A DNA stretch of 64,000 nt from Alkalihalobacillus sp. CinArs1 (lineage in GTDB: Bacteria > Bacillota > Bacilli > Bacillales > Guptibacillaceae): contig NZ_CANDOB010000002.1 of NCBI RefSeq assembly GCF_947387515.1, positions 992,001-1,056,000 of the forward strand, read 5' to 3'. Under the pieces are notes generated by a model. That model ran no database searches. It was not told where the DNA came from and was given only the letters and a program-made list of their open reading frames with translations. Below are positions 4,685-34,673 of the stretch, one piece after another. The number at the start of each line of letters is the position of its first letter. Position 1 is the stretch's first letter. Made by a program: the position numbers and the translations under genes.

Positions 4685-4719
4685 GAACTAATAATAAAAA
4701 ATCGAGGAGGAGCATGGAT

Positions 4720-15292: not shown

Positions 15293-15631
15293 TCAGTTTG
15301 CAGCGCGAGAAATACCAGCAAGCGTGCTACAGTCGATGATAACTGTTCTAGGTGTTCCTGCGGCATCTACTGGTGTGTAACGGAACCTTGCGCAACAGCT
15401 GTGCGATTCAAACCCCATAAAAGTGAATGTTGTAGGATTTTCTGCACCACTCATATACATATATCCTGTTTGACCTTTAGGAAGTAAATACACTTCAGTC
15501 ATTGTATCTTCCCAAATATCACAGTTGTTTCCGTTAGCCATGCGGCGCAACACATCACATACACAACCTTTGCAATGTGAAGTAGGTCTTACAGAACCAC
15601 AACATGTATCGTCAAAAAGACTTCTTCTCAT
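15293..15631 (-). CDS. Cys-rich probable spore coat/exosporium protein (CotZ/ExsY-like features)
   Basis: 112 aa with nine cysteines, including CC at 10-11, CKGCVCDVLRRM near residues 20-31 and SHSCC in the middle. The CVCDVLR element and the C-terminal VIIDCSTLAGI beta-rich part recall the CotY/CotZ/ExsY coat proteins that cross-link by disulfides. It is shorter than CotZ and I cannot confirm the family. AAGGAGG precedes the ATG. Isolated gene with its own terminator between sugar-nucleotide and glycosyltransferase genes. On the minus strand CATACACT, a sigma-E-like -10, lies about 85 bases upstream. Confidence 0.65.
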   Translation of the reverse strand: MRRSLFDDTCCGSVRPTSHCKGCVCDVLRRMANGNNCDIWEDTMTEVYLLPKGQTGYMYMSGAENPTTFTFMGFESHSCCARFRYTPVDAAGTPRTVIIDCSTLAGISRAAN

Positions 15632-16121: not shown

Positions 16122-16150
16122 AAGGTTTCACAACTGTGAAACCTTTTTTA
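16122..16150 (+). terminator. Terminator after the 76-aa gene
   Basis: Perfect stem AAGGTTTCAC / GTGAAACCTT with AACT loop and a T run. Confidence 0.9.
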
Positions 16151-16180
16151 TATTCTGCTAGAAAGAAAGGGTGTGAACGG

Positions 16181-17119
16181 ATGGTCCGGAAACGAACGAT
16201 CTTATTTATTACAAAAGATTTATCAAAGCATGTAGAGCGCAGCAGTTATTATTTGGTGAGAGAATTACAAAAACGCGCAAACGTCATCTTTTGGCATGAT
16301 CATGGATTGTTACCTGACATTCTAGCTAAGATTCAAGTACGTCCAGATTTCATTCTGATGAACGATCTACATCCTACTTATTGCCCTTTTATAAGAAGAA
16401 TAAATGAAACAGACATACCGGTCGGAATCTTTATGCATGACCTTCATTATAAAAAGCAGCACCGTAAACGGTTTATCGAGAAAGGGAACGTGTCTGTAAT
16501 CTTTGCTCACTATCGAGATGCGTTTTTAAAATGGTATCCGGAATTTCAGGATCGCTTCATTTGGTTTCCTCATCATGTCGACACATCGATCTTCAAAGAT
16601 TATAAGCTAGGTAAAAGTACTGATTATTTAATGCTTGGTGCATTGTTTCCAAGCTTCTATCCACTGCGTGCGAGTATGTACAACCAATTGAAGGCTACGA
16701 CGAATTTTAAATACTATGAACATCCTGGATATAAACGAATTGGCAAAGGTCATTTAGCAGGGGAAGCTTACGCAATGGAATTAAATCGTGCGAAGATGTT
16801 TTTTACGTGTGACTCGATCTACCATTATCCAGTACTAAAATATTTTGAAGTGCCAGCATGCAATAGTCTACTTTTAGCTTCCTCATCGAAAGAATTAACA
16901 GATCTCGGGTTCGTTGATGGGAAAACCTTTGTGGCTGTTCATGAACAGAATGTGCTTCAGAAAGCTTCGTATTATTTGAAACATGAAAAAGAACGACTTC
17001 AAATAGCAAGAGCAGGTCATCAGATGGTGATTGCGAATCATTCCACATCGAAACGAGCAGATGAGCTGATGGAACACATCGAAAAAGTGATCATAGATAA
17101 AGAAAAGACGCGAAGGTAA
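16181..17119 (+). CDS. CgeB-like glycosyltransferase
   Basis: 312 aa; C-terminal half fits the Glyco_trans_1_2/CgeB family (GYKRIGKGHLAGEAYAMEL, then YHYPVLKYFEVPACNSLLL). CgeB is a spore maturation protein of similar length (about 317 aa) that alters the outermost spore layer. N-terminal half includes MNDLHPTYCPF and FMHDLHYKKQHRKRF. The ATG at 16181 has GAAAGG about 10 bases upstream. A GTG at 16136 in the same frame lies inside the preceding terminator and is rejected. Ends at a short terminator. Confidence 0.8.
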   Translation: MVRKRTILFITKDLSKHVERSSYYLVRELQKRANVIFWHDHGLLPDILAKIQVRPDFILMNDLHPTYCPFIRRINETDIPVGIFMHDLHYKKQHRKRFIEKGNVSVIFAHYRDAFLKWYPEFQDRFIWFPHHVDTSIFKDYKLGKSTDYLMLGALFPSFYPLRASMYNQLKATTNFKYYEHPGYKRIGKGHLAGEAYAMELNRAKMFFTCDSIYHYPVLKYFEVPACNSLLLASSSKELTDLGFVDGKTFVAVHEQNVLQKASYYLKHEKERLQIARAGHQMVIANHSTSKRADELMEHIEKVIIDKEKTRR

Positions 17120-17120
17120 G

Positions 17121-17143
17121 GACACACTTCAGTGTCTTTTTGT
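17121..17143 (+). terminator. Short terminator after the CgeB-like gene
   Basis: GACAC / GTGTC hairpin followed by five T. Confidence 0.55.
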
Positions 17144-17293
17144 TGTGTTAAGATTTGTCGATTTTCCGATTCAAAAGCCTGTGACCATAACTGAACTACA
17201 GAAATACTTCCTAGAATAATAGATTTTCATTGGTTTCAATTTATCGTGTTAAACGGAATGCCGTTTTTTTACAAATATAGTGTGCTAACCATA

Positions 17294-17321
17294 TCAAACT
17301 GTTAATAACTTACATAACCTA
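17294..17321 (+). promoter_or_regulatory. Candidate sigma-K promoter of the amino-sugar operon
   Basis: CATAACCTA (17313-17321) is a perfect sigma-K -10. Sixteen bases upstream is ATCA, one mismatch from the -35 mACm. The first gene starts 43 bases downstream. Confidence 0.45.
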
Positions 17322-17363
17322 TCAGTAAGCTGTCCTAGAAATCTAGCAGGAGGGGAAGGAACC

Positions 17364-18461
17364 ATGAAAATCATTACCGTTTTAGGTACTAGACCTGAAA
17401 TCATACGGTTGAGCTTGATCATCGATAAGCTCGATCATCTAGCAGATAAGCATGTACTTATCCATACAGGGCAAAACTTCACGAAAACCCTCAGCAGCAT
17501 CTTTTTTAAGGAGCTCGGTATAAGAGAGCCTGATTATATGTTATTTAATCAGCAACAATCGCTAGGAGAACAGCTCGCGACCATGTATCGAGAGCTTGAA
17601 ATCATATTTAAAAAAGAAATGCCTGATAAGGTTCTTGTGTTAGGAGATACAAACAGTGCGTTAAGTGCCATTTTAGCAGAGCGGATGGGAATTCCTGTCG
17701 TGCACATGGAAGCTGGAAACCGATGCTTTGATTGGTCTGTACCTGAAGAGAAAAACCGACGTGTCATCGATGCGATCTCAACATTCAATCTTCCGTATAC
17801 GCCTCAAAGTAAAGAAAACCTCTTACGGGAAGGCATTGCGACCAATCGGGTTTATGTTTCTGGAAATCCGATCAATGAAGTGTTGAAACATAATCAAGCT
17901 AAGATCAATGAAAGCTCAATTCTTGAGGATCTTAACCTGACAAAAAAGGATTATTTCCTAGTTACGGCTCATCGGGCTGAAAACGTTGATTATGATGAGA
18001 ACCTCAAAGAAATCCTTCAAGGAATGAATCATGTTGTTAAAACACATGGTAAACGGATGATTTGTAGTGTTCACCCGCGTACAAGATCACGTTTGTCACA
18101 ATTGAATGGCATCGAATTAGATCCCCTCATCGAATTTCATGAACCGTTCGGATTTTTTGACTTCGTGAAGCTTGAACAGAATGCAAAGTGTGTTCTAACA
18201 GATAGCGGTACTGTCCAGGAAGAATGTTGTTTGTTCTATATTCCTACAGTAACGATACGAAAAACAACGGAACGTCCAGAAACCGTTGCATGTGGAAGCA
18301 ACATTGTTTCAGGTTTAAATGCGATGAATATTTTGCGAGCAGTGAACGTGATGGTGAATCAACCTTCGGAATGGGATCTTCCAGAAGGCTATGCAGATGA
18401 TGCAGTTTCAGATAAAGTGGTGAAATTTTTAATGGGAGGGCTACATGTTGTTCCACAATAA
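17364..18461 (+). CDS. Non-hydrolysing UDP-GlcNAc 2-epimerase family protein (CapG/WecB type)
   Basis: 365 aa, begins MKIITVLGTRPEIIRLS, the family signature. Also visible are GDTNSALSAILAERM, HMEAGNRCFDWSVPEE, TAHRAENVD, and LTDSGTVQEECC near residue 275. WecB itself makes UDP-ManNAc. In a cluster with the next two genes, the CapG/FnlC/WbvD reaction (2-epimerisation of a UDP-6-deoxy-L-amino sugar) is more likely. First gene of a tight operon running to 21144; its 3' end overlaps the next gene by 17 bases. Confidence 0.88.
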   Translation: MKIITVLGTRPEIIRLSLIIDKLDHLADKHVLIHTGQNFTKTLSSIFFKELGIREPDYMLFNQQQSLGEQLATMYRELEIIFKKEMPDKVLVLGDTNSALSAILAERMGIPVVHMEAGNRCFDWSVPEEKNRRVIDAISTFNLPYTPQSKENLLREGIATNRVYVSGNPINEVLKHNQAKINESSILEDLNLTKKDYFLVTAHRAENVDYDENLKEILQGMNHVVKTHGKRMICSVHPRTRSRLSQLNGIELDPLIEFHEPFGFFDFVKLEQNAKCVLTDSGTVQEECCLFYIPTVTIRKTTERPETVACGSNIVSGLNAMNILRAVNVMVNQPSEWDLPEGYADDAVSDKVVKFLMGGLHVVPQ

Positions 18462-19437
18462 AACGATACTGGTAACTGGGGGAACTGGATCATGGGGAAA
18501 TGAACTTGTAAAGCAATTGCTTGAAAAACAGCCGAGCGAAATAAGAGTTTTCTCGAGAAATGAGTCCAGTCAAGTCGCGATGAAACGAGCTTTTCATCAA
18601 GAGAAAAAGCTTAAATTTATTATAGGAGATATTAAGGAAAAGGACGGTCTAATCGAGGCAACGAAAGGGGTAGACTTTGTTTTTCATCTTGCAGCTCTTA
18701 AGCATGTTCCGGTATGTGAGGATCAACCTTTAGAAGCGATGAAGACAAATGTCATTGGGACCCAAAACGTAATCGATGCGGCTATTCTTAATAACGTTGA
18801 AAAAGTAATCTATATTTCGACGGATAAAGCAGCGAATCCATCGAACTTTTACGGATTCACAAAAGCGATGGGTGAGCGTTTGATCATTCATGCGAATGTT
18901 CTCAAATCGAATACAACGTTCGTATGCGTGCGTGGCGGGAACGTGTTAGGCACGAACGGGAGCGTTATCCATGTATTTAAGAACCAGATAGAAGAACACG
19001 GTAAAATCGGTATAACAGATATGAGGATGACACGATTTTTCTTAACGCTTGAAGATGCGATCAAGCTTCTTTTCAAAGCAACGTACGAAAGCAAGGGTGG
19101 CGAGATTTTCGTTATGAAGATGCCTACATGTAAGATTGTAGACCTTGCAGATGTGCTGATCGAAGCGTCTGGTAAGGAAAATGTAGACATCGAAGTACTT
19201 GGCATACGACCAGGCGAAAAGTTGCACGAGTTACTATTTTCAGAGTATGAAAGTCAGAGCACGGTGTATTACGACAAAGAATACTTCGTGATCTTACCAT
19301 CAATTACAGTAGACGGGCTTCAGGAATATTACGCTGACTTTAAGCAAGTAGAACTAGAAAACTATAATTCTAGCGAGAATTTGATGTCGAGAGATGAGTT
19401 GAAGAATCTCCTTCAAAAAGGTGGATTCATCTCATGA
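18445..19437 (+). CDS. UDP-GlcNAc 4,6-dehydratase/5-epimerase (CapE/FnlA type)
   Basis: Polysaccharide-biosynthesis SDR of 330 aa. NAD loop TGGTGSWGNEL at residues 11-21; active site STDKAANPSNFYGFTK combining Thr-Asp-Lys with Tyr-x3-Lys; C-terminal GIRPGEKLHELLF, typical of CapE/FlaA1-type enzymes. It converts UDP-GlcNAc to a 4-keto-6-deoxy intermediate and may invert C5. No membrane segments, unlike CapD. The ATG follows GGGAGGG. Confidence 0.87.
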   Translation: MLFHNKTILVTGGTGSWGNELVKQLLEKQPSEIRVFSRNESSQVAMKRAFHQEKKLKFIIGDIKEKDGLIEATKGVDFVFHLAALKHVPVCEDQPLEAMKTNVIGTQNVIDAAILNNVEKVIYISTDKAANPSNFYGFTKAMGERLIIHANVLKSNTTFVCVRGGNVLGTNGSVIHVFKNQIEEHGKIGITDMRMTRFFLTLEDAIKLLFKATYESKGGEIFVMKMPTCKIVDLADVLIEASGKENVDIEVLGIRPGEKLHELLFSEYESQSTVYYDKEYFVILPSITVDGLQEYYADFKQVELENYNSSENLMSRDELKNLLQKGGFIS

Positions 19438-20258
19438 AGCTACTTGTCTTAGGTGGAAAAGGAATGGCCGGGCATATGATCGTGGATTATTTCCAGCGAA
19501 AAGACGGCTGGGATGTCTCCTATACTTGCCGGGACAGCAATAGTGGTGGAATCTATTTAGACGTACTCATACCGAGCCAGGTAGAAGAGTTGATCGATCA
19601 GATGAAACCGGACATCGTGATCAACGCGATTGGAATCTTGAATCAGCACGCCGAGCGAAATAAAACAGAAGCCTTCCAAGTCAACAGCTTACTCCCTCAT
19701 CAGCTTGCAAAGTTAACGAAGCGGTATGGCGGGAAGCTTGTTCATATCAGCACAGACTGTGTATTTTCAGGTGAGAAGGGTGATTATACAGAGTTTGATT
19801 CCAAGGATGGAACGTCTGTTTACGCAAAAACAAAAGCAATGGGCGAGGTGAACGATGACAGTGCGTTAACGATCCGAACTTCAATCGTGGGTCCAGAACT
19901 GAAGAAGGACGGTATCGGATTGCTACTGTGGTTTATGCAGCAAAAAGGAGAAATAAAAGGGTATAAGAACATGATGTGGAATGGCGTAACAACGCTTGAG
20001 CTAGCGAAGGCGATCGACTGTTTGCTTTTGAACAACGTAACAGGACTCTATCATCTATGCGTTGGTGAGAAGGTATCGAAATACGAGCTCCTACACTTGT
20101 TCAAAAATGCATTTAATAAAGATGACGTACGCATCACACCTGATGAAGAAGTCGTGCTAGATCGTACGATCGTGAATACGCGGAAAGACTTTATTTATAC
20201 ACCTCCTAATTATGAATCGATGCTAAAGGAACTTAAGGATTGGATGGAAGATGAGTGA
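19434..20258 (+). CDS. RmlD-like 4-keto-sugar nucleotide reductase (CapF/WbvR type)
   Basis: 274 aa SDR: NAD(P) loop LGGKGMAGHMI at residues 6-16, HISTDCVFSGEKGDYTE, and catalytic YAKTK. It lacks the C-terminal cupin domain of CapF/FnlB (about 370 aa), so it resembles the single-domain WbvR/RmlD reductases. With its neighbours it should reduce the 4-keto intermediate to a UDP-6-deoxy-talosamine or rhamnosamine-type sugar. Start and stop overlap both neighbours (4 and 8 bases), indicating translational coupling. Confidence 0.85.
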   Translation: MKLLVLGGKGMAGHMIVDYFQRKDGWDVSYTCRDSNSGGIYLDVLIPSQVEELIDQMKPDIVINAIGILNQHAERNKTEAFQVNSLLPHQLAKLTKRYGGKLVHISTDCVFSGEKGDYTEFDSKDGTSVYAKTKAMGEVNDDSALTIRTSIVGPELKKDGIGLLLWFMQQKGEIKGYKNMMWNGVTTLELAKAIDCLLLNNVTGLYHLCVGEKVSKYELLHLFKNAFNKDDVRITPDEEVVLDRTIVNTRKDFIYTPPNYESMLKELKDWMEDE

Positions 20259-21144
20259 TGACTCCATTCTAATCACGGGCGCGTCTGGTTTTACGGGACA
20301 GCATGCGTGCAGACACTTTCTTAAGACTGATCTGAAGGTTACTGCTGTCGTTCGAAACACTTGCTTAGAAGGTTTGCGTTCGGTCCAGTGTGATTTAACA
20401 GACAAGAATGCTATCGATCGTTTGATAAAAGAAGAACAGCCAACATATGTGCTCCACCTCGCAGGGGTAAACGCAGTTCAGACGTCATGGGAAAATCCGG
20501 TGAGTACGTTAGAAGCAAATGTGTTATCGACGGTTTATTTGCTCGATGCGATACGAACTACGAAGCCTTCGACAAAAGTCGTGATGGTTGGCTCTGCACT
20601 TCAATATGATCCTGCTAAAGGAAAACCCAGCCACCCTTATGCGCTGAGTAAAACGATGCAGTCGCAGGTCGCTCTTCACTTGGCAGAATTGTATAACCTT
20701 CACGTTGTATTAGCTAAGCCAACAAACCTAATAGGTCCAGGAAATTCTTCTGGGATATGTGCACTGCTTACGAAACACATCGTAGATATGGAACGAAACC
20801 TTACGTCCGAGGCGTTTTCTGTTTCGAATCTACAGGTGAAAAGGGATTTCCTTGACGTCCGTGATGTGGTAAGTGCTTATGAGAAGTTATTCGTTACAGG
20901 AGAAAGGACACGAACATACGATCTTGCTACTGGAAGACTTGTCGCACTGCAAGAGGTAGTGAGGGAGCTTGAGACGTTAACAGAGGTATCTCATTTCGTA
21001 GTCGACAAGAAACTTGGTGAGAATGGAACTGTTATTCCGATGGATGTGTCGAACATTAAAAACCTTGGTTGGAATCCGACATACTCCCTTCGCCAGAGTC
21101 TAGAAGATTCTCTAGAGTACTATAGAAACCTTGAGCAGGCGTGA
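20251..21144 (+). CDS. NAD-dependent sugar-nucleotide epimerase/reductase (RMD-like SDR)
   Basis: 297 aa extended SDR. NAD loop TGASGFTGQHA at 9-19, VLHLAGVNAV, serine segment VGSALQYDP, catalytic YALSK, then VLAKPTNLIGPGN. The short GSALQY active site resembles GDP-4-keto-6-deoxymannose reductases, but the real substrate is not deducible. It overlaps the upstream reductase by 8 bases, so it acts in the same pathway or on a second sugar of the same glycan. A sulfotransferase gene follows 37 bases downstream. Confidence 0.8.
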   Translation: MSDDSILITGASGFTGQHACRHFLKTDLKVTAVVRNTCLEGLRSVQCDLTDKNAIDRLIKEEQPTYVLHLAGVNAVQTSWENPVSTLEANVLSTVYLLDAIRTTKPSTKVVMVGSALQYDPAKGKPSHPYALSKTMQSQVALHLAELYNLHVVLAKPTNLIGPGNSSGICALLTKHIVDMERNLTSEAFSVSNLQVKRDFLDVRDVVSAYEKLFVTGERTRTYDLATGRLVALQEVVRELETLTEVSHFVVDKKLGENGTVIPMDVSNIKNLGWNPTYSLRQSLEDSLEYYRNLEQA

Positions 21145-21181
21145 GCCATAGTATTTTACTACGAGAAAGTGAGGAACGACA

Positions 21182-21955
21182 TTGTCTAAAACAAATGAAT
21201 TAGATCCTTTTATCATGATTTCAATTCCAAAGAGCGGCACACATTTGCTTAAGCAAATTCTGCTTGGCATCCCTGGAATGAAACACTTCCCTGATAAAGG
21301 GATGTTTGGTCACTTCAATAATCAACCGAAGCTACAGCTTTCTAGAACAGAGAATCTAGAAAAAAATGAGTTTGTGAATGGTCATTTGTTCTGTTCGGAT
21401 GAATGGGATGCGTTTTTTACGAAGTTGAATATGAAGAAGATATTTGTCATGAGAGACCCGCGAGACGTTGTTGTTTCTTATGCGTATTTTATTCCTACTT
21501 TAGAAATACACCCACTCTACGAAACATTCACACAAAAAGGATTTACCCATCGTGATCGCATGAAGTTCTTAATTGAAGGTGGTCAACCGATCACGCCTCA
21601 AAAGCCTTATCAGCCGAACATTGAAGAATGGTATACAAGTTTTTCTAAATGGAAGGACCGTCCGAATGTTTTTACGATCCGGTTTGAAGACTTAATTTCA
21701 TCAGAACGAAATCGAATTCTCGTTCTTCATCATCTCGTTAAATTTCTATGGAAAGACGATTCTGTTCCTAAATCGCGATCTTGGATGGTAGGAAATATGC
21801 TTAAGAACATCGACCCTTCTACATCACCAACGTTTCGAAAAGGTACGATAGGCGGCTGGCAAGGCGAGTTCGATTCTGATTTAAAGAGTCTATTTAAAAA
21901 AGAGAGTGGTACCCTTTTAACATCGTTAGGATATGAAAAAACTCCAGATTGGTAA
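21182..21955 (+). CDS. PAPS-dependent sulfotransferase (cytosolic type, Sulfotransfer_1)
   Basis: 257 aa soluble enzyme with all three cofactor signatures of cytosolic sulfotransferases: 5'-phosphosulfate loop IPKSGTHLLKQIL (15-27), 3'-phosphate site MRDPRDVVVSYAYF (90-103), and FRKGTIGGWQGEF (218-230), the RKGxxGxW element. Expected to transfer sulfate from PAPS to a sugar hydroxyl. TTG start at 21182 with GTGAGGAA upstream. Last gene of the amino-sugar operon, with a terminator after it. Sulfotransferases are not among the coat genes known in B. subtilis. Paralogue at 25163-25909. Confidence 0.88.
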   Translation: MSKTNELDPFIMISIPKSGTHLLKQILLGIPGMKHFPDKGMFGHFNNQPKLQLSRTENLEKNEFVNGHLFCSDEWDAFFTKLNMKKIFVMRDPRDVVVSYAYFIPTLEIHPLYETFTQKGFTHRDRMKFLIEGGQPITPQKPYQPNIEEWYTSFSKWKDRPNVFTIRFEDLISSERNRILVLHHLVKFLWKDDSVPKSRSWMVGNMLKNIDPSTSPTFRKGTIGGWQGEFDSDLKSLFKKESGTLLTSLGYEKTPDW

Positions 21956-21958
21956 TCA

Positions 21959-21990
21959 AAAACGGCATGGTAGACAAGTGCCGTTTTTTA
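21959..21990 (+). terminator. Terminator of the amino-sugar/sulfotransferase operon
   Basis: AAAACGGCA pairs with TGCCGTTTT, then T run. Confidence 0.85.
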
Positions 21991-22042
21991 GTTGGTTTAT
22001 GGAAAGTTGTGGGTGTGTATCTAGTCGGCGTTTCGTCTTATT

Positions 22043-22051
22043 CATAAACTA
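22043..22051 (+). promoter_or_regulatory. Sigma-K-like -10 before the glycosyltransferase operon
   Basis: CATAAACTA matches CATAnnnTA perfectly, 53 bases before the GTG start at 22105. No good -35 at 16 bases, so weak. Confidence 0.3.
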
Positions 22052-22104
22052 GTGATAGGTAAGATAGTTTACACGTTAACGACTTAAATATGAGGAGGGA
22101 TCCA

Positions 22105-22839
22105 GTGAGTGATCGTCCGAAAGTTAGTATCATCATTCCATTTTATAACTGTGAGTACGTTAATCAAGCGATTGAAAGTGCACTGAATCAAACGTATCAA
22201 CATATAGAAATCATTGTGGTAGACGATGGTTCTTCCATGCACAAACAGCTGATCGACCCTTATCTCCCTCTTGTAAAATACGTTTATAAACGTAATGGAG
22301 GCACAGCGACTGCACTTAATCGAGGGGTCGGTTTAGCTACAGGTGAATTCATCGCATGGTTAAGCTCAGATGATCTATTTTTACCAGACAAGATAGCAAA
22401 ACAAGTTTCGCACATGAAGCACTCAGGAGCGGATCTCGTCTATACAAACTTCAGCTTGATCGATGAGAACAATGTTGTTTTTAGAGAGCATGTAGGGACA
22501 AGGTTAAAAACAAGGCTGGCTTTTTTAAAGCATTTACAAAACAACTGTCCAATCAATGGAAGTACAGTATTGGTTAAGAAAGCGCTATTTGAGAAAACTG
22601 GAATGTTTAACCCGAAGCTGAAATACACCCAGGATTATGATATGTGGATGAGGATGGCAAGATATGCACGAATCGAAAGTATGGAAGAAACCTTACTATA
22701 CTATCGAAAGCATAGGAAGATGGGATCCGTTGTCCATAGTGATGAACAACAAAATGAAATCGCGTCATTAAAAAAACGGTATGAACGAATGCTCGATGAA
22801 CTGATTATAGAAGAGCAAAGAAGAATTCTAGAAACATGA
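22105..22839 (+). CDS. Glycosyltransferase family 2 protein
   Basis: GT-A fold enzyme of 244 aa. Begins with VSIIIPFYNCEYVNQAI, nucleotide site IIVVDDGSS, NGGTATALNRGV, and the metal motif SSDD near residue 90. The acceptor side ends with TQDYDMWMRMA, an ED-like motif of inverting GT2 enzymes. The RBS AGGAGGG lies 5 bases before the GTG at 22105; the ATG at 22090 sits upstream of that site and is rejected. Close paralogue of 26101-26823. First of three glycosyltransferases in a row. Confidence 0.87.
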   Translation: MSDRPKVSIIIPFYNCEYVNQAIESALNQTYQHIEIIVVDDGSSMHKQLIDPYLPLVKYVYKRNGGTATALNRGVGLATGEFIAWLSSDDLFLPDKIAKQVSHMKHSGADLVYTNFSLIDENNVVFREHVGTRLKTRLAFLKHLQNNCPINGSTVLVKKALFEKTGMFNPKLKYTQDYDMWMRMARYARIESMEETLLYYRKHRKMGSVVHSDEQQNEIASLKKRYERMLDELIIEEQRRILET

Positions 22840-22863
22840 AGGTTATGAGAGCGAGGTGATTCC

Positions 22864-24069
22864 ATGCATGGCAGCAAGACTGAGAAAGAGATCAGTATCA
22901 TTATCCCGACCTATAATAAATTTCCTCAAAATTTATTCACGCTTTACTCCCTCCAGAATCAAACGTTTGATTTATCTAAGGTCGAGGTGATTTTGATCGA
23001 TGATGGTTCTACGGATGAAACAGCTCAAATCATGAATCGTCATTCGTTTACATTCGATCTGAAGTACATCGATTGTGGCGGAAATATCGGAAGAGCGGCT
23101 GCACGAAATAAAGGTCTTATGGAAGCGAAAGGAAAAGTTATTATCTTTCTTGACGCAGAAATACTGGTGAGACCGGATTTTTTGACGATCCATCACACCT
23201 ATCACAAAGAAATTAAAAATGCGGTCGTAACAGGAATCATTTTTATAAAACGACTGTACTCTGTACTATTTAATGACTTCACACCTGAACAGATCGAAGA
23301 GTGTTATGAACTAGCAAAATGTAATCCAATACTGGTAAAAAAGTTTAAGGAGTTCGAGGTGAACAAAGGACGAAAACCCTTGATCACTCGAGCAGATATC
23401 ATAAATCAATCGTACCAATCCATGACTATGCCTACACATTACGAAGAATTTTATAAACGTATTTTAATCAACAATTACGGTTATCAATTACAAGACTACC
23501 GTATTCCGTGGCAGTTATTTGGAACCGGACATGTTTCTGTTTCTAAAGGAATGCTCGATCGGGTAGGGCTGTTCTCTGAATACCCAGGCTATGGGTGGGA
23601 TGATTGCGAGATGGGCTTCAGACTGTATAAAAAAGGCGCTAAATACGTTACGGATCCAAGGCTTGTGAGTTATCACCAGGAACATCCTGTTTCGATTCAT
23701 AATACTGACGATTCAAAAAAGAACTACTACCGATTTCAAGAAACGTATCGGTCGATCGAATGTATGATCATTAGCCTTACGTTTTTACCAGTTCCTTTCA
23801 ATTTGCATGAAGTGAATCAAATATTGATAGATTACCACAAGCTATGTGAAACGTACCCGAACGATTATTCGCTAACGAAGAAAGTGTTTCATGAGATGTT
23901 GAGAGGTATCGGAAAGCGACGTGCTTTTAATGAACCGTTAACAGAATTGATTCCTAAACATCTGAGTGAAGAACAAGTTGCAGCGTTGCATGAAGAACTT
24001 CAAACAGTGGGGAACAAAAAAGAGTTTACGCGTTTTCTAGAGTGCTTTGATCGCTTAAAGAAGCTGTAA
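22864..24069 (+). CDS. Glycosyltransferase family 2 with galactosyltransferase-like C-terminal domain
   Basis: 401 aa. N-terminal GT-A domain: ISIIIPTYNKFPQNLF, ILIDDGSTDET, NIGRAAARNKG, FLDAE (in place of DxD). Then a helical insert and the segment GYGWDDCEMGFRLYKKGA, typical of Glyco_transf_7C in chondroitin-synthase-like enzymes. The last 130 residues are helical without a clear match. Gap to the upstream gene is 24 bases. Acceptor unknown; the resemblance to glycosaminoglycan-type synthases is suggestive next to sulfotransferases. Confidence 0.83.
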   Translation: MHGSKTEKEISIIIPTYNKFPQNLFTLYSLQNQTFDLSKVEVILIDDGSTDETAQIMNRHSFTFDLKYIDCGGNIGRAAARNKGLMEAKGKVIIFLDAEILVRPDFLTIHHTYHKEIKNAVVTGIIFIKRLYSVLFNDFTPEQIEECYELAKCNPILVKKFKEFEVNKGRKPLITRADIINQSYQSMTMPTHYEEFYKRILINNYGYQLQDYRIPWQLFGTGHVSVSKGMLDRVGLFSEYPGYGWDDCEMGFRLYKKGAKYVTDPRLVSYHQEHPVSIHNTDDSKKNYYRFQETYRSIECMIISLTFLPVPFNLHEVNQILIDYHKLCETYPNDYSLTKKVFHEMLRGIGKRRAFNEPLTELIPKHLSEEQVAALHEELQTVGNKKEFTRFLECFDRLKKL

Positions 24070-24098
24070 GACAAATTGAGTGAAAGGAAAACAATGCT

Positions 24099-25124
24099 AT
24101 GAAAATTACATTTGCTGCATTAACTCTCTGTAAGGGAGGGGCACAAAGGATGTTGGTTGAACTAGCCAATGGTTTGGCAAACAAGGGGCATGACGTTTCT
24201 TTTGTTATGCCTCCTGGCGGCGTTATCGAATATCCGAACAAAGTAACGGTTATCAGGACAAAGGGTACAGGGATCAAATCAGATGATTTTCCAGTAAGCG
24301 ACGTGATTGTTTCGAACTTCTACACACTTACGAACGTGTGTCAGCAAGCGAGTCAGGAAGGGAAAGGAATTCATGTTCGGATTAGCCTCTGCTATGAACC
24401 GGTTTTTCTAGATGATCATGAAGCGTCTTTTAAAAGCTATCACATTAGTAAGAACCTTATTGTTCTCTCAAACTGGCAAAAACAGCTCATCAACTTAAAT
24501 CATGGGATTGAAGGCAAAATTGTACCTGTCGGAGTCAGTGATGTGTTCAGGAATATGAACATCCGAAACAACAAGAAGTTAGAGGTGAGCGGCATCCTTC
24601 GAATACCAGAAGGAGGCTATTCCTGGCATAGAGAGCAAGAGTATTTGATTTCTGTTTTCACTCGGTTGAAACAAACGTACCCTGATTTGAAAATAAATTT
24701 GATCACACCACCTTCAGAATTAAACTCATCACGGTGGTTGAGGCAAATGCATGCAAATCAACTGTTTCAATCGTTAACTCCGCAAAATGATCAACAGCTC
24801 AATCTATTCTTGAATCAAGCGGACATATTCGTGAGCTCGTCTACTTACGACACCGCCTCTCTTCCAGGATTAGAAGCCATGAAGTGTGGTGCGGCACTTG
24901 CAACGGTTTACTCTGGTGGAAACATGGACTATTGCAGAAGCGGGGAGAACTGCCTGTTATCTTACCGGCATGAAAATAACTTGTTTCGAGATGTATCGAC
25001 CTTGATTCAGCAGCCGAACCTTCGAAACAAATTCATGGTTGAGGGACAGAAAGAAGCTGCGAAATGGACATGGCAGCGAAGTGTGAATCTGTTCGAACAG
25101 GCGTTGATCGCTTTTAAGAAATAA
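24099..25124 (+). CDS. Glycosyltransferase family 4-like protein
   Basis: 341 aa GT-B enzyme. Opening LTLCKGGAQRMLVELANGLANKG is the acceptor-domain signature of GT4. C-terminal half holds QADIFVSSSTYDTASLPGLEAMKCGAALA, which has the second glutamate of the Ex7E motif but not an obvious first one. AAAGGAAAA precedes the ATG. Third gene of the glycosyltransferase operon, closed by a terminator. Confidence 0.82.
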   Translation: MKITFAALTLCKGGAQRMLVELANGLANKGHDVSFVMPPGGVIEYPNKVTVIRTKGTGIKSDDFPVSDVIVSNFYTLTNVCQQASQEGKGIHVRISLCYEPVFLDDHEASFKSYHISKNLIVLSNWQKQLINLNHGIEGKIVPVGVSDVFRNMNIRNNKKLEVSGILRIPEGGYSWHREQEYLISVFTRLKQTYPDLKINLITPPSELNSSRWLRQMHANQLFQSLTPQNDQQLNLFLNQADIFVSSSTYDTASLPGLEAMKCGAALATVYSGGNMDYCRSGENCLLSYRHENNLFRDVSTLIQQPNLRNKFMVEGQKEAAKWTWQRSVNLFEQALIAFKK

Positions 25125-25137
25125 TCGCTTGCTAATT

Positions 25138-25160
25138 GGGGGAGAGGTCCCCCTTTTTTT
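25138..25160 (+). terminator. Terminator of the glycosyltransferase operon
   Basis: GGGGGA / TCCCCC hairpin with GAGG loop followed by seven T. Confidence 0.9.
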
Positions 25161-25162
25161 CA

Positions 25163-25909
25163 TTACCAGCTCTTATCGTTCTCGTAACCTAATTGAATGA
25201 GAAGATCTCCTGCTACCGCTTTAAAGGCGTCCTTCACCTCTTTATCAAACTCTTGCCTCCAATTTCCTGATTGCCCTTTCCGAAATGTGACTGATTTTTT
25301 AGGATCTACATTCGATTGCATCTGATTGACTCGCGTTTTTATTACGTCTTGGTGAAGTTCTAACTGAAAGAAGCGTACTATTCTTTCTAATTGCTGTAAC
25401 TGAGATTCTTTTGATTCTACAAGTGATTCGTAAGAGATTGGAAGAACATTCGGTTCATTCAACCATCCTGCGAACTTCTGGTACCAATCTCTAATATTAG
25501 GCCTCTTGATTAAATCATTAGTTGCTCCGTTTATGAAAATTAGAAATCTCTCTTTGATCGACAACTTATGATCTTGGAAGTATCTTCGATAAGGGTGGTC
25601 GGGAAATTGCATGAAGAAATAACCGTAAGACACGACGATATCTCGAGGGTCTCGATACAAAAAGAGCTGTTTAAGTTCCAGTTCCTTAAAAAGGGCTGTA
25701 TACTCATCCGAATGGAAGAGGTGACCGTTTGCAAATGAGTTTATTGGAAGTGAGGAGAGCGTTTTTCGATGCTCCTCGAGTTGTTGAAGATGACCAGGAT
25801 AGATGAATGCTTTGTGCGTAAGCTCTGGGTGTCCCTCTAGGAGTTGTTTCATTAAGTGTGTTCCGCTCTTAGCAATGGAGTTCGCAAAAAATGGGTTTCT
25901 ATTCGTCAA
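25163..25909 (-). CDS. PAPS-dependent sulfotransferase (second copy)
   Basis: 248 aa paralogue of the 21182-21955 product. AKSGTHLMKQLL (13-24) as phosphosulfate loop, YRDPRDIVVSYGYFF (85-99) as 3'-phosphate site, and FRKGQSGNWRQEF (209-221). Shared FANGHLFHSDEY-type and WYQKFAGWLNEPNV segments show recent common ancestry. The loop reads AKSG rather than PKSG. TTG start at 25909 with AGAGAGGA 8 bases upstream. Transcribed convergently toward the glycosyltransferase operon. Presumed to modify a different position or sugar of the spore glycan. Confidence 0.87.
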   Translation of the reverse strand: MTNRNPFFANSIAKSGTHLMKQLLEGHPELTHKAFIYPGHLQQLEEHRKTLSSLPINSFANGHLFHSDEYTALFKELELKQLFLYRDPRDIVVSYGYFFMQFPDHPYRRYFQDHKLSIKERFLIFINGATNDLIKRPNIRDWYQKFAGWLNEPNVLPISYESLVESKESQLQQLERIVRFFQLELHQDVIKTRVNQMQSNVDPKKSVTFRKGQSGNWRQEFDKEVKDAFKAVAGDLLIQLGYENDKSW

Positions 25910-26020
25910 AGCAAAAATCCTCTCTGCTTTTTTCTAATACTTTCACACCTTCATCTTATGCAGTACCTACAAGTTGGTCTCTTTGAATAAGAAGAGGTTT
26001 GGTTCATCGCATACATAATC

Positions 26021-26029
26021 CATAAAATA
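26021..26029 (+). promoter_or_regulatory. Sigma-K-like -10 before the lone GT2 gene
   Basis: CATAAAATA fits CATAnnnTA, 71 bases before the TTG start at 26101. No matching -35 element was found. Confidence 0.25.
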
Positions 26030-26100
26030 GAGGAATGTCCAATACAAATTGGAAGCAATTGCATAATTTAATATGACTATGAAATCCAGGGGGGAGACCG

Positions 26101-26823
26101 TTGGAAAAGGTTTCGATCATCATTCCATTCTATAACTGCGCATACGTAGATCAGGCGATACAGAGTGCGCTGAACCAAACCTATGAAAATATTGAAATCA
26201 TCGTTGTGAACGATGGTTCTACGAAACATGAAGAAAAAGTTAAGAAATATCTGCGTTCGATCACGTATATAAAAAAAGAAAACGGTGGAACTGCAAGTGC
26301 GCTGAACGCTGGAATCAAAGCAGCAACGGGGGCTTATTTTTGCTGGTTAAGTTCAGATGATTGTTATGAAGCCGATAAAGTACGAAAGCAAGTTGAGTTT
26401 ATGAAAAGAACGAATGCCTCAGTCAGCTACTCATCTTACGTCCTGATGAATCAATCGAGTGCTGTCGTCACTGGCCCGATCGGTGTTTACTTTCCAACTA
26501 ATCTACTCTTTTATAGAAAGATCAAGGTGAACTGCCCAATCAATGGATGTACGGTGATGCTTAAGATGTCACTATTCGAAGAACTCGGAGTGTTTGATGA
26601 AAGCCTTCCCTTCACGCATGATTATGATTTATGGTTAAGAATCGTGCAAAAATACGACTTCAAGTATTTAGATCAGCCTCTCGTACGCTATAGAGTCCAT
26701 GATGAAATGGGAACGAAGAAACATGCTGCAGCCATTCGAAAAGAAATTCAAACCGTTCGGAAAAGACATCTTCGAAACATGAATCGGAAAATTGTAGACG
26801 AAATCAAAGGAAGAAGACTGTAG
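26101..26823 (+). CDS. Glycosyltransferase family 2 protein (paralogue)
   Basis: 240 aa, very similar in layout to 22105-22839: VSIIIPFYNCAYVDQAIQSA, IIVVNDGST, NGGTASALNAGI, WLSSDD, NCPINGCTVMLK, THDYDLWLRI. Starts with TTG at 26101 after GGGGGGAGACCG. The pair brackets the sulfotransferase and the other glycosyltransferases, as if a duplicated unit had been split. The SLC13 transporter gene follows after 34 bases. Confidence 0.86.
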   Translation: MEKVSIIIPFYNCAYVDQAIQSALNQTYENIEIIVVNDGSTKHEEKVKKYLRSITYIKKENGGTASALNAGIKAATGAYFCWLSSDDCYEADKVRKQVEFMKRTNASVSYSSYVLMNQSSAVVTGPIGVYFPTNLLFYRKIKVNCPINGCTVMLKMSLFEELGVFDESLPFTHDYDLWLRIVQKYDFKYLDQPLVRYRVHDEMGTKKHAAAIRKEIQTVRKRHLRNMNRKIVDEIKGRRL

Positions 26824-26857
26824 ATGGCTGAACATAAAAAATTTTTAATAGGAGAGT

Positions 26858-28123
26858 GTGTCAGTTGAAATGATGAGCATCTATGGATTTATCACGATCA
26901 GCATCATTTTCATCATGTTTATCATTTTGATGTTCGAGTGGGTAAGGGCTCACATTGCGTTTGTTTCAGTTGTCTTCATTCTACTTCTAATCGGAGTGCT
27001 CTCTCCAATGGAAGCCATATCAGGATTTATTAATCAGAGTGTCATCACGGTTGGAGCATTATTCGTAATCATCACTGCCATTCAGAGGACCAGCGTTGTG
27101 GAAACCTTAACAAGTATGATTTCGAGGTCAGCTGATAATGAATCAAAAAGCACGATGAAGATCATGGCGATCGTTTCCGCAATGTCTAGCTTCCTTAACA
27201 ATATACCGCTCGTTCTTCTGATCACCCCAATCGTTAAAAAGTGGTCGATCGCCAAAAACTCTTATCCATCAAAATTTCTCATCTCAGTGTCTTATGCAGC
27301 TATTCTAGGCGGAATGTGTACACTGATTGGAACTTCGACGAACCTTTTGATTCATTCCATGCTCGTACAAAATGGGTATGAAGGGTTTTCAATGTTCGAA
27401 TTAGCCCTAGTCGGTGTACCAAGCGCGATAGCAGTGATTCTCTACATGAGTATTTACGGCTATCGACGACTGCCGGAAATACACCATGAAGAAAAAGAAC
27501 TTCCAACTCAGGTGAAGAAACTGACAATGTCGGGAAAAGAAATCCTCATTTATGTTTTGTTTTTCTCCATGCTTCTTAGTGTAAGTTTGCAGTGGATTTC
27601 GATGGCTCACGGTGCAATGATCACCTGTATCCTTTTCCTCATTCTCAGAGTGATCACAATCAAAGAAGCGTTCCGATCGATCCCCTGGCCGCTGTTAAGC
27701 ATCATTGGATCTGCTCTAGGGATTGCGGTGGCACTTGAAAAGTCTGGTGCTGCTCTCATGATGACAGAAACATTTATCTTACCATTGAGTGAGTATGGCC
27801 CCTTTCCTTTACTCGTTGCAATCTATATCTTAGCCTCAGTCGTTACAGAGATGATTACGAATAACGCTGCAGCTGCTCTCGTTTTTCCAATCGCACTCTA
27901 TATGACGGAACAACTAGGATTCAATGTTGAACCATATGCAATTGCGATCGCGATTGCTGCCTCAGCTAGCTTTTTAACTCCTTTCGGCTATCAAACGAAC
28001 CTAATAGTTTATGAAGAAGGAAAGTATCGATTCGTCGATTTTATGAAAGCTGGTTTGCCAGTGAAAATCATCGTCATGTGCACGACGCTTTATTTGATCC
28101 CTCTTTTTTGGCCGCTCATATAA
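26858..28123 (+). CDS. SLC13/DASS-family transporter, possible sulfate permease
   Basis: Integral membrane protein of about 420 aa with some 11-12 hydrophobic segments. Two pseudo-repeated Na+/anion motifs are visible: FLNNIPLVLL with GTSTNLLIHSM in the first half, and MITNNAAAALVFP with TPFGYQTNLIVY in the second. It lacks the internal RCK domains of SAC1/SLT-type sulfate transporters, though the core resembles them. Substrates of the family are sulfate, dicarboxylates or phosphate. Being next to two sulfotransferases makes sulfate an attractive guess. Start is uncertain: GTG at 26858 is 1-3 bases from GGAGAG, ATG at 26870 is 13 away. Confidence 0.75.
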   Translation: MSVEMMSIYGFITISIIFIMFIILMFEWVRAHIAFVSVVFILLLIGVLSPMEAISGFINQSVITVGALFVIITAIQRTSVVETLTSMISRSADNESKSTMKIMAIVSAMSSFLNNIPLVLLITPIVKKWSIAKNSYPSKFLISVSYAAILGGMCTLIGTSTNLLIHSMLVQNGYEGFSMFELALVGVPSAIAVILYMSIYGYRRLPEIHHEEKELPTQVKKLTMSGKEILIYVLFFSMLLSVSLQWISMAHGAMITCILFLILRVITIKEAFRSIPWPLLSIIGSALGIAVALEKSGAALMMTETFILPLSEYGPFPLLVAIYILASVVTEMITNNAAAALVFPIALYMTEQLGFNVEPYAIAIAIAASASFLTPFGYQTNLIVYEEGKYRFVDFMKAGLPVKIIVMCTTLYLIPLFWPLI

Positions 28124-28364: not shown

Positions 28365-29183
28365 TTAACGCTTTTTTTGAAATGGATTTATTATGGATCG
28401 TCGGTTTTCTCTATTTTGGAATTTAAACGGATTAAACGTTTGGACGTCTTGATTAGCATTTACGTTTTTAAATGGTTCGATCTGATGGCTTAATTTCGGT
28501 TTTTCCTCGAGCAAACCTTTCTTTGCTTCTATAGGCTTCTTTGTAGGGGAAGAAGCAAGTTCAGGTGGTAAGTCTGGCCAGTCTGTTTCAGTTTCGTTCA
28601 ATTGGTAGTTTGCAAAATGAGGATTGATGGGGCGAAGAACTTTCTTAATGATCGTTTGGTATTCATGAAACGTGATCGCTGAGATTGGATAAAGTTCTTC
28701 TCTATAAAACGACTGTATGATCGCATAGCTAAGCCATTCAGGAATTTGTTGTGAAACGTAAGGTTGAAATCGAAATCGTAATGTAGCACTTAACGTTGGA
28801 AGCCATAAGTGTTTGTGAAGGTGCTCTTGAACGTTTTTCGTCGAGAGCTGTAGCGGCTTTAAATAGTAGTTCATATTATTTACTCTGAGTGCAATTGGAT
28901 GAGAGCCGCTATGACGTACCTCAACGAAGATCCGTAGGTCCTGAGCTTCATGTCGATTCGTGGTTAGCCGAACTCCAGTATGCAATAAACTTTTTTTTAG
29001 TGAATCAAACAGCTCAACAGGTAACCCCTCGATACACACAACTTTACCGGTGAACGCGCTCGACGCTTTACTCGAGCGGGCATCGATGGATAGCCCAAAG
29101 TATGGCATGAGAAGATTGAGGTGCTCTCGTTCTTCCTTTGTTAAGGATCCGATCGCTCTCTCTTTCCAATAGAATTGTTCCAT
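28365..29183 (-). CDS. Uncharacterised protein, probable spore role
   Basis: 272 aa. Residues 1-180 look globular (FYWKERAIGSLTKEEREHL at the start; QIPEWLSYAIIQSFYREELYPISA in the middle). From about 185 on it is low-complexity, rich in Pro, Lys, Asn and Phe, with NPFKFQNRENRRS and INPFQKKR at the end. The repeated NPF element recalls coat morphogenetic or interaction tails. In B. subtilis cotO lies after fabI in this region, but I do not see enough to equate them. AAGGAGTG precedes the ATG. Confidence 0.7.
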   Translation of the reverse strand: MEQFYWKERAIGSLTKEEREHLNLLMPYFGLSIDARSSKASSAFTGKVVCIEGLPVELFDSLKKSLLHTGVRLTTNRHEAQDLRIFVEVRHSGSHPIALRVNNMNYYLKPLQLSTKNVQEHLHKHLWLPTLSATLRFRFQPYVSQQIPEWLSYAIIQSFYREELYPISAITFHEYQTIIKKVLRPINPHFANYQLNETETDWPDLPPELASSPTKKPIEAKKGLLEEKPKLSHQIEPFKNVNANQDVQTFNPFKFQNRENRRSIINPFQKKR

Positions 29184-29329
29184 ATAAAAACACTCCTTCG
29201 ACGGATTAAAATGAATAAGAAGCAGATTTCCAATAAAAGAAATTTGGGCAGCCTTTACTGTTGCATTTCTCTCCTAATTCCATAATATGTAGTGAATCAA
29301 CCTATAATGTGAAGAAAGGAATGAACTAT

Positions 29330-30508
29330 ATGGGTCACAAGCCTAAACCGAACCGAACGATTCCTACTGCAACGAACAGTTTGCAAGATGAATGTATTCG
29401 CGTTCAAAAAGTTTACGACTGGGTAACGGACCAACTGATGGTTTCAAAGAACATCCAATTCTCTGAAGATCAGTTAGAACAGATAGAGTCTGCAATGGAA
29501 GATCCTAGTCGCCGTCCGCTAAGGATCGTTGCACAAACGCCTGAAGCGCCACCATTATTTCCGCTAGCAGATAGCGATCACTGTGAGGAGTTTCTTTGCG
29601 AACAGGTTGGAGAGAAACGAGATGTGAACGTCGTACTTCCAGGGGGAGGCTATGCGGACGCACAACTCGTCGATTTACTCTTCACCACAGATGTGAAAGT
29701 AAGAGTAGTCGACCGTAACGGTCAGACGGTTACAGAGGTTAGCTGCAATGCATCTGTATTAGAATCTTTCGTTCTATGCTATCCGGACGGAACTGATCTT
29801 TATTGCCGCATTACGAAGATCATCGCACGCATCCCATCTGGCACGATTCTCTTAAACTGTCCTGTTCCTCAATCATTCGATCTAGAAGTTATTTTCTGTG
29901 TAGATATTCAAGTTGAAGCAGAGGTGAAGCTAGAAGTTCTTGCTAAGTTCTGTTCACCTCGTGATAATGACCTGATCGCTCCAGAAGATGTTGATGAGTG
30001 GTGCCCACCAATTACGTTCCCTGAACAATGTCCAGATATCTTCCCAAGACCAAGCTGCGATTGTACTGTAGCGGGTGAAGCCAGCGGTTCTACTGGTAAT
30101 GGAGACTACGAAGGAAATATCTCGATGAAGCTCAATATTTGTCCTGATTGCAGCTTGACTGGAAGCAATATGTCATTTACATTCAATGATTCAAACATGG
30201 AAGATGGCACGATGGACTTTTCATTCACAGCAGAGTCATTCGATCAAGATTCACTCGTTTGCGTTCCTTGTGGAGACGAAGGTGTTAAATTCATGATCAA
30301 TGGATCCGGAAGAATGAAAAACGGAATCAGATGTGAATTCAAGCTAGCTGTTGTAGATACTGATGAAGGCAATGAATTCGAAGTGCATTTGTACGACCGT
30401 AGAGGGGAAACTGTATTCAACTCTGGTGTAGTCGAAGCTGAAACAGGCGGTTTAACGATCGACAACTGCATTAATTTCGACGACATAAAGTACAAGAAAC
30501 ATCACTAA
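29330..30508 (+). CDS. Cys-rich probable spore structural protein with CIRVQKVYDWV motif
   Basis: 392 aa. N-terminus GHKPKPNRTIPT is unstructured, followed by ECIRVQKVYDWVTDQL, a signature I associate with uncharacterised Bacillaceae spore/exosporium proteins. The rest is beta-rich, with around 20 cysteines in pairs (CEEFLC, CPDIFPRPSCDC, CPDC, CVPC). The C-terminal 130 residues resemble an immunoglobulin-like sandwich (SFTFNDSNMEDG...). AAAGGA precedes the ATG at 29330; upstream in-frame starts lack spacing. Disulfide cross-linking in a coat layer is a plausible role. Terminator follows. Confidence 0.7.
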   Translation: MGHKPKPNRTIPTATNSLQDECIRVQKVYDWVTDQLMVSKNIQFSEDQLEQIESAMEDPSRRPLRIVAQTPEAPPLFPLADSDHCEEFLCEQVGEKRDVNVVLPGGGYADAQLVDLLFTTDVKVRVVDRNGQTVTEVSCNASVLESFVLCYPDGTDLYCRITKIIARIPSGTILLNCPVPQSFDLEVIFCVDIQVEAEVKLEVLAKFCSPRDNDLIAPEDVDEWCPPITFPEQCPDIFPRPSCDCTVAGEASGSTGNGDYEGNISMKLNICPDCSLTGSNMSFTFNDSNMEDGTMDFSFTAESFDQDSLVCVPCGDEGVKFMINGSGRMKNGIRCEFKLAVVDTDEGNEFEVHLYDRRGETVFNSGVVEAETGGLTIDNCINFDDIKYKKHH

Positions 30509-30524
30509 GATCGAAGGATGTGAA

Positions 30525-30550
30525 GGGGGAGAGAGATCTCTCCCTTTTTG
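30525..30550 (+). terminator. Terminator after the Cys-rich gene
   Basis: GGGAGAGA / TCTCTCCC hairpin with a 2-base loop, then five T. It shows that the next gene starts downstream, at 30604. Confidence 0.85.
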
Positions 30551-30603
30551 TTATGAAGAGGGGACCGAGGTTCATACATATAATAGGGAGAGGAGTGAGC
30601 CAA

Positions 30604-31602
30604 GTGAAACAGGATGAAACGTTAAGCTATTCCAGGTTGATTACAAGAACAAAATACTTTCAAGAAAAATCATTAGAACTTGAAAAAGAACTGATATTTG
30701 TAAAAGATCATCTTCATTTGGTCGAAACTAAAATGGAAGAGTTACAATACGAAAACGATGCTAAAAGAGCGTCACTCGAAACGAAAGAAGGGAAGATAAA
30801 GGAATTTGAGAAGGAAGTAAACAAAGCTCACCTAAAGATTGAAGCATTGGAAGAAGAGCGGCGTAAGTTAATCGGTGAGCTTGAGAGAACAAAGGCTGAA
30901 ATCGACAAAGAACAAAAGAGTACAACAGACCTGAAGATGAAGCTTGAAGCTGTAGAAAAGAAATACCAAGGAGCAGTTTCAGAAGGTAGGATCAAGAATT
31001 ACGAAAAGCTTCTTACATCGATGCAAAATGATATCAATGAGAAAGAAGTACAAATACAACAATTCAAAACAAAAATAAAAGATTATGAAAGACGTATGAA
31101 ATATCGAACGCCAAGTGATGTAAAGGATACAGAAACATCTGAAAGTACAGATAAACTAAACGCGTTAGCGTACTTAAATTACTCGATCATTGTGAATGAT
31201 AAAAAGTCATTCATCATAAGAGGGGACTTGCAGATTACGAACAAAGGGATGTCGTCGCTGAAGAACCCAGTTGTATGTTTTCGATTCCGTCCAGCAGAAA
31301 CAGCCATAATTAAAGGTCAGATTCTAACGGTTGAACAGGCAGAGACAAGAGGGGCTACAAACGGTACACAGTGGACGTTCATGGATAGCGACTGGATGTC
31401 GAAAGCAAGAGAGCGAGGCGAGATCTGGGTATCACCTCTTGGTGATGTTTCCATTTCTCCTGGCAACAAAATAGGGATCGAGAATTTTCAAATTCCATTA
31501 AGAACGGAGATTCATGAACCTTTTATTGTAGAGGGATTCGTATACTTTTATGAACAAGATTATAAGATCAAAACGTCGAATCAAATCGCGATCAGCTATT
31601 AA
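30604..31602 (+). CDS. Coiled-coil protein with C-terminal beta domain
   Basis: 332 aa. Residues about 15-185 form one long, charged heptad-type coiled coil (EKSLELEKELIFVKDHLHL... EKEVQIQQFKTKIKDYE). After a polar linker, residues 200-332 make a beta-rich domain (LNYSIIVNDKKSFIIRGDL to KTSNQIAISY). GTG start at 30604 with GGAGAGGAG 8 bases upstream. In-frame codons upstream lie within the previous terminator. No family recognised. A filamentous coat or exosporium linker is a guess. Confidence 0.7.
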   Translation: MKQDETLSYSRLITRTKYFQEKSLELEKELIFVKDHLHLVETKMEELQYENDAKRASLETKEGKIKEFEKEVNKAHLKIEALEEERRKLIGELERTKAEIDKEQKSTTDLKMKLEAVEKKYQGAVSEGRIKNYEKLLTSMQNDINEKEVQIQQFKTKIKDYERRMKYRTPSDVKDTETSESTDKLNALAYLNYSIIVNDKKSFIIRGDLQITNKGMSSLKNPVVCFRFRPAETAIIKGQILTVEQAETRGATNGTQWTFMDSDWMSKARERGEIWVSPLGDVSISPGNKIGIENFQIPLRTEIHEPFIVEGFVYFYEQDYKIKTSNQIAISY

Positions 31603-32771: not shown

Positions 32772-32803
32772 TAAAAAAAGACACCGGACTTAAACCGGTG
32801 TCA
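32772..32803 (-). terminator. Terminator of the yjcG-yjcF operon
   Basis: GACACCGG / CCGGTGTC stem; T run on the minus strand; the yjcF stop codon lies at its edge. Confidence 0.88.
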
Positions 32804-33738: not shown

Positions 33739-33835
33739 AGTATAATCCCTCCCATTAAATTTGCTCTGGACGTGACTTATTCATTTCCACTGTTAATTAT
33801 ACCAAAAATTCAAAAATAAGAAATGGTAATGTCGT

Positions 33836-34558: not shown

Positions 34559-34596
34559 TTCAAAGCCTCCTGTGCAGTAGTGAAAGTTAGTTTTAT

Positions 34597-34627
34597 TTGA
34601 CATTCTAATTTTTCGTAGTGATATAAT
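34597..34627 (+). promoter_or_regulatory. Sigma-A promoter of the PgpA-like gene
   Basis: TTGACA (34597-34602) and TATAAT (34622-34627), spacer 19 bases, slightly long. Confidence 0.45.
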
Positions 34628-34673
34628 GATTCTAACATACTTGCTTTTGGGGGACATAGAGAGGAGAACTAAC

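Follow-up and report, generated by a model that had tools for sequence, protein, structure and literature searches.

Passages of two accounts of Bacillus subtilis describe the sps and spsM genes, which specify a crust glycan containing legionaminic acid and rhamnose, as having sigK promoters and mother-cell expression, with the glycan placed on the spore (PMC7439481, PMC11708026), and present it as made and used within the mother cell (PMC7439481). Those passages mention no sulfation; the string 'sulf' occurs once only, in a phenol-sulfuric assay (PMC7439481). A stretch of 64,000 bp from Alkalihalobacillus sp. CinArs1 (hereafter the window; contig C2 positions 992001–1056000 of a 4.03 Mb genome, assembly 99.76% complete) contains an island at window positions 17364–28123 that is probably best explained as a predicted pathway for a mother-cell-made, O-sulfated spore-surface glycan. 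Like sps/spsM as described there, the island combines sugar-nucleotide enzymes with glycosyltransferases, but its sugar genes are others and it adds two sulfotransferases and a predicted sulfate transporter, with the genes for the sulfate donor 3′-phosphoadenosine-5′-phosphosulfate (PAPS) present in the genome. This interpretation is drawn from the enzyme families, the intact PAPS-site residues, gene linkage in relatives, sat and cysC genes occurring without cysH or cysP, and promoter-like −10 boxes. No report of sulfate modification of spore glycans was found in the literature searched, which covered few subscription journals.

The island consists of 11 sense open reading frames (ORFs), all transcribed on the forward strand except that of sulfotransferase 2. 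Four encode sugar-nucleotide enzymes: a WecB-type UDP-GlcNAc 2-epimerase (17364–18461; TIGR00236, 286.5 bits, cut-off 210.15), a UDP-HexNAc 4,6-dehydratase resembling PseB, FnlA and CapE (18445–19437; PF02719, 335.6 bits; PDB matches 6bwc CapD, 4j2o and 2gn4), an RmlD-like reductase (19434–20258; PF04321, 106.9 bits; TIGR01214, 114.4 bits, under its cut-off), and a further enzyme of the short-chain dehydrogenase/reductase (SDR) family (20251–21144; PF01370, 150.8 bits). Sulfotransferase 1 (21182–21955) is followed by two GT2 glycosyltransferases (22090–22839 and 22864–24069; PF00535, 106.1 and 90.5 bits) and a GT4 glycosyltransferase (24099–25124; PF00534, 45.7 bits). Beyond the reverse-strand sulfotransferase 2 (25163–25909) are a third GT2 enzyme (26101–26823; PF00535, 110.3 bits) and an SLC13/DASS-type anion transporter, a predicted sulfate importer (26858–28123; PF03600, 201.1 bits). 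A first-pass annotation had placed two sulfotransferases with PAPS-binding signatures among amino-sugar enzymes, four glycosyltransferases and a transporter; the ORF listing of the window recovers each of these genes at the same positions, and Pfam or NCBIfam matches were found for all.

Sulfotransferases 1 and 2 (257 and 248 aa, both with TTG starts) are the only PF00685 (Sulfotransfer_1) matches in the genome, at 64.5 and 67.5 bits (curated cut-off 22), and share 40% identity over 256 columns. PF13469 (Sulfotransfer_3) was considered as the family and dropped, having no match in this genome where PF00685 fits, and neither protein has an NCBIfam match at E≤0.001. The signatures claimed at first pass are borne out in a 48-row alignment, in which the 5′ loop (PKSGTH in sulfotransferase 1, AKSGTH in sulfotransferase 2), the 3′ phosphate site and RKGxxGxW are intact; both proteins also carry RDPRDxxVS. 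Residues A2, K17, S18, G19, R91, D95, S99, E169, R219, G221 and W226 are invariant in all 48 rows, with H68 in 47, T20 in 46 and K220 in 39; position 16 is P in 44 rows and A in the other four, including sulfotransferase 2. H68 is presumably the counterpart of the SULT catalytic histidine. An AlphaFold2 model of sulfotransferase 1 has a confident SULT-like fold (mean predicted local distance difference test score 93.7, predicted template modelling score 0.90), and all 50 Foldseek matches listed are sulfotransferases, many solved with PAP or PAPS. The fold, as modelled for sulfotransferase 1, and the PAPS-site residues are common to the SULT family and the window proteins, but identity in the Foldseek alignments is only ~16–20% at a TM-score of ~0.6 for sulfotransferase 1, the acceptor side differs, and the gene context here is glycan synthesis. 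By family and residues both genes encode PAPS-type sulfotransferases, for which sulfate transfer is predicted.

A survey of relatives retained 79 sulfotransferase loci from the best 80 of 148, of which 41 are from Bacillota and 38 from elsewhere; the genomes (G) and loci (L) are partly the same assemblies (for instance, G003 is L053 and G012 is L048), which makes the sets mutually dependent. At least three of the wecB, fnlA, rmlD and second SDR genes are present in 19 of the 41 Bacillota loci, sat or cysC in 19, at least three of the sugar genes together with sat or cysC in 12, and a coat marker in seven. The corresponding counts among the 38 other loci are zero for the sugar quartet, zero for the coat marker and two for PAPS genes. 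Individual loci illustrate the arrangement. The order in G008 is coat gene, unknown gene, cysC, transporter, sat, glycosyltransferases, SDR, rmlD, fnlA, wecB and sulfotransferase; Pseudalkalibacillus decolorationis (L051) has wecB-fnlA-rmlD-SDR, a glycosyltransferase, the sulfotransferase, two more glycosyltransferases and sat-SLC13-cysC, then the coat gene; and Fictibacillus barbaricus (L058) has a coat gene, cysC, an apparently broken sat, the sulfotransferase and the sugar quartet. Genus relatives are named within Pseudalkalibacillus or the 'Alkalihalobacillus' algicola and macyae group, to which CinArs1 is accordingly presumed to belong. Among these relatives, six genomes (G001, G004, G005, G007, G010 and G011) have a relative of sulfotransferase 1 (~50–53% identity) directly after an APS (adenosine 5′-phosphosulfate) kinase gene and beside an SLC13 gene; Pfam matches confirm the order sat, SLC13/TrkA_C, cysC, sulfotransferase at one of these (L032; G001:C41:196001–216000). 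G002, G012 and G013 contain a sat-SLC13-cysC set with no sulfotransferase in it. A third such set (L141; G001:C41:246001–262000) lies with a CMP-Kdo-synthetase-like gene and a weak HfsF-like (flippase-like) match, and possibly specifies another sulfated polysaccharide. Across the order the sulfotransferase family profile exceeds 190 bits in only 22 of 299 genomes (28 at E≤0.001), a distribution that marks the family as patchy and accessory.

Synthesis of PAPS is encoded outside the window, as the first-pass annotation had proposed: the genome's only APS-kinase match is ~0.95 Mb away (G000:C2:44089), adjacent to an ATP sulfurylase gene (C2:42.8–44.6 kb). The single PF01507 match that could represent CysH is a 467-aa ORF scoring 24.8 bits (cut-off 22.5), which we take to be TilS. 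Matches to CysH of 185–201 bits are present in 10 of 14 genus genomes, and the CysP permease model likewise matches in 10 of the 14; CinArs1 (G000), G002, G003 and G013 have neither and retain sat-cysC or cysC. These counts exclude unidentified PF01507 matches in 532-aa frames of G003 (48.8 bits) and G004 (similar), as well as APS-kinase fragments of 26 to 41 residues in G006, G007 and G010. Full-length APS kinases outnumber CysH genes in all 12 genus genomes with a sulfotransferase and in neither of the two without (G006 and G009; Fisher p = 0.011, ignoring phylogeny). Because sat and cysC are present while CysH and CysP have no match at family strength, PAPS in CinArs1 probably serves sulfation and has no other evident use. 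The chances are about even that this lineage has lost cysH and cysP, with SLC13 import, Sat and CysC surviving solely for spore-surface sulfation late in sporulation, a proposal based on the absence of both genes in so complete an assembly.

The transporter is 75% identical to its G003 relative, and its closest relative outside G003 is the G008 orthologue (57.6% over 420 aa), which sits between sat and cysC. SLC13 relatives bearing TrkA_C, which accompany sat or cysC at many other loci, are 33–45% identical to it in pieces, and the paralogue that matched within its own genome is ~23% identical. It shares PF03600 with the SLC13/DASS family and has PDB matches to both VcINDY and the sulfate carrier SLC13A1, but falls below the cut-off of the DASS subfamily model TIGR00785 (110.2 bits, cut-off 198.6); by its family matches it is classed as CitMHS/DASS-type, outside that model. 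Since this G008 orthologue is closer than the TrkA_C-bearing relatives or the paralogue, sulfate is the best-supported predicted substrate. The sulfate specificity proposed at first pass thereby gains comparative support from sat/cysC linkage in G008 and elsewhere, and is still a prediction.

The island lies close to a gene for a BMQ_0737-family morphogenetic spore coat protein (29261–30508, forward strand; NF052457, 140.5 bits, cut-off 71). This is the one flanking gene with a coat assignment by family match; a small Cys-rich protein on the other side (15293–15631, reverse strand), for which Pfam, NCBIfam and PDB gave no significant match, is coat-like by eye only. Its relatives occupy the equivalent place, and its description as a proven coat protein was dropped. 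An NF052457 gene lies within 15 kb of a sulfotransferase gene in nine of 23 genomes with both, against 0.28 expected at random placing; these figures omit four of the 27 PF00685 genomes with no coat match shown (G022, G066, G067 and G102) and include G046, in which the sulfotransferase match is under the cut-off. The nine belong to three family groups, with six in one genus. The genome has a sigK gene (371.8 bits, cut-off 298.65). The 12 sense ORFs of 16136–28123 are all assigned to families, and no Pfam family of a flippase, polymerase or initiating phosphoglycosyltransferase is among them, in keeping with a glycan that the mother cell both makes and uses internally. The first of these ORFs (16136–17119, forward strand) encodes a Glyco_trans_1_2 family glycosyltransferase (PF13524, 71.7 bits) that we presume to be CotSA-like.

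The sequence CATAnnnTA corresponds to the −10 element recognized by sigK and is close to that of sigE. One such sigK/sigE-like box, CATAACCTA (17313–17321), is 51 bp before the sugar operon (17364), and −10-like boxes precede two of the GT2 genes: CATAAACTA (22043–22051) is 47 bp before the gene at 22090 and CATAATTTA (26062–26070) is 39 bp before that at 26101, all three on the forward strand. Among deduplicated sequences preceding wecB orthologues, 17 of 23 contain CATAnnnTA (shuffled mean 2.1; none of 60 shuffles reaches 17), 44–101 bp from the gene starts, where the −10 alone does not separate sigE from sigK. Other ORFs with non-coding upstream sequence at the same loci have it in 41 of 168 cases (Fisher p = 5e-6 against the wecB set), a comparison in which the 168 regions include other spore genes and related sequences are not independent. 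A looser −10 pattern precedes six of eight coat genes and the strict box six of 16 sat genes. No clear sigK −35 element was established in the wecB upstream regions; several sequences have a GCCTA-like block ~25 bp upstream of the −10, presumably resembling a GerE box. The spore location put forward in the first-pass annotation is thus favored by coat-gene adjacency beyond chance, the mother-cell-type −10 boxes, sigK and the lack of export families, while remaining a prediction.

In the proposed pathway, WecB, the dehydratase, the RmlD-like reductase and the SDR enzyme would produce a nucleotide-activated deoxy-N-acetylhexosamine. The names L-FucNAc and L-QuiNAc were considered for this sugar and dropped, as the dehydratase is below the equivalog cut-offs for both FnlA (TIGR04130, 265.3 of 730 bits) and PseB (TIGR03589, 324.4 of 407.75 bits). 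The glycan would be assembled by the cytosolic GT2 and GT4 enzymes, and the two sulfotransferases would move sulfate from PAPS onto it, probably at different positions. Sulfate would enter the mother cell through the island's SLC13 transporter and be converted to PAPS by Sat and CysC; the mother cell could then lay the product on the forespore with no need of an export machine. We infer the acceptor, timing, spore location and sulfate transport of this pathway. If it operates as predicted, sulfate esters would make the spore surface strongly acidic and permanently charged, which would affect adhesion, hydration, metal binding and recognition; sulfation would be an added modification among spore glycans, and the resulting spore surface would be of an unexpected kind.

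Several observations weigh against a spore-surface role. The sulfotransferases of several relatives sit away from coat genes: in the six genus members noted above the sat-SLC13-cysC-sulfotransferase set is separate from the coat gene, and the set at L032 has a GvpL/GvpF gas-vesicle gene nearby. At 15 of the 41 Bacillota loci the flanks covered contain neither sugar quartet nor PAPS genes; examples are lone sulfotransferase copies in Fictibacillus and the relatives of sulfotransferase 2 at L062, L064, L096 and L147 (58–60% identity), which occur singly and apart from genes for glycan or PAPS synthesis. The strict −10 box shows no enrichment upstream of sulfotransferase 1 genes (one of nine) or CotSA-like genes (two of 11), is absent upstream of sulfotransferase 2 on its own strand, and precedes an antiporter control gene in three of five cases.

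The best surviving alternative, though an improbable one, is that the island makes a sulfated vegetative exopolysaccharide or capsule and adjoins coat genes by chance. Its glycosyltransferases are partly like exopolysaccharide and teichuronic acid enzymes, and the separate sat-SLC13-cysC cluster at L141 suggests that the genus may produce vegetative glycans carrying sulfate. A polymer of this kind is harder to reconcile with an island that has no export or polymerase family, with −10 boxes of mother-cell type ahead of the sugar operon, and with coat-gene linkage recurring in three family groups. Still less probable is a reading in which the sulfotransferases have a small metabolite, lipid or protein as substrate and bear no relation to their neighbors. 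In both sequence and fold comparisons, the nearest solved structures among the matches listed are animal cytosolic SULTs with small-molecule acceptors, and the lone copies would suit such a role, but the sugar quartet and glycosyltransferases recur beside sulfotransferases down to ~30% identity, with up to four sulfotransferase copies in one glycan cluster. That sat, cysC and the transporter represent ordinary sulfate assimilation, linked only incidentally to the sulfotransferases, is very unlikely: Sat and CysC take part in assimilation too and APS kinase is found in 11 of 14 control genomes, but G008 has a separate cysH-cysP-sat-cysC set (L142), G006 has a like set (L143; judged by matching ORF lengths and sat/cysC), and CinArs1 has no family-strength CysH or CysP match.

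Between the island and the coat gene is a conserved gene with no Pfam family (28365–29183, reverse strand), whose place beside the island is kept in several relatives, and the coat gene is followed, as in relatives, by a gene for a coiled-coil protein with no family over cut-off (30520–31602, forward strand). A FabI gene is present on one flank of the island (4675–5496), and the flank genes at 32801–34675 are presumably yjcF, yjcG and yjcH, which, with FabI, we take to be neighbors of the cotVWXYZ crust locus in B. subtilis. The lone Fictibacillus sulfotransferase matches at L079 and L122 have an in-frame stop within the matched stretch and are perhaps decaying. The ten extra large proteins tested from the clusters of relatives are a subtilase, an IS21-type element and glycosyltransferases, of which some have a lectin-like domain. 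The sulfotransferase island of G008 contains an IS21-type transposase paired with IstB (L039, 11923–14246), and proteins of ~600 aa combining a lectin-like Laminin_G_3 domain with GT4 adjoin the sulfotransferase at L044 (10936–12717), L075 (11078–12886) and L115 (13745–15532).

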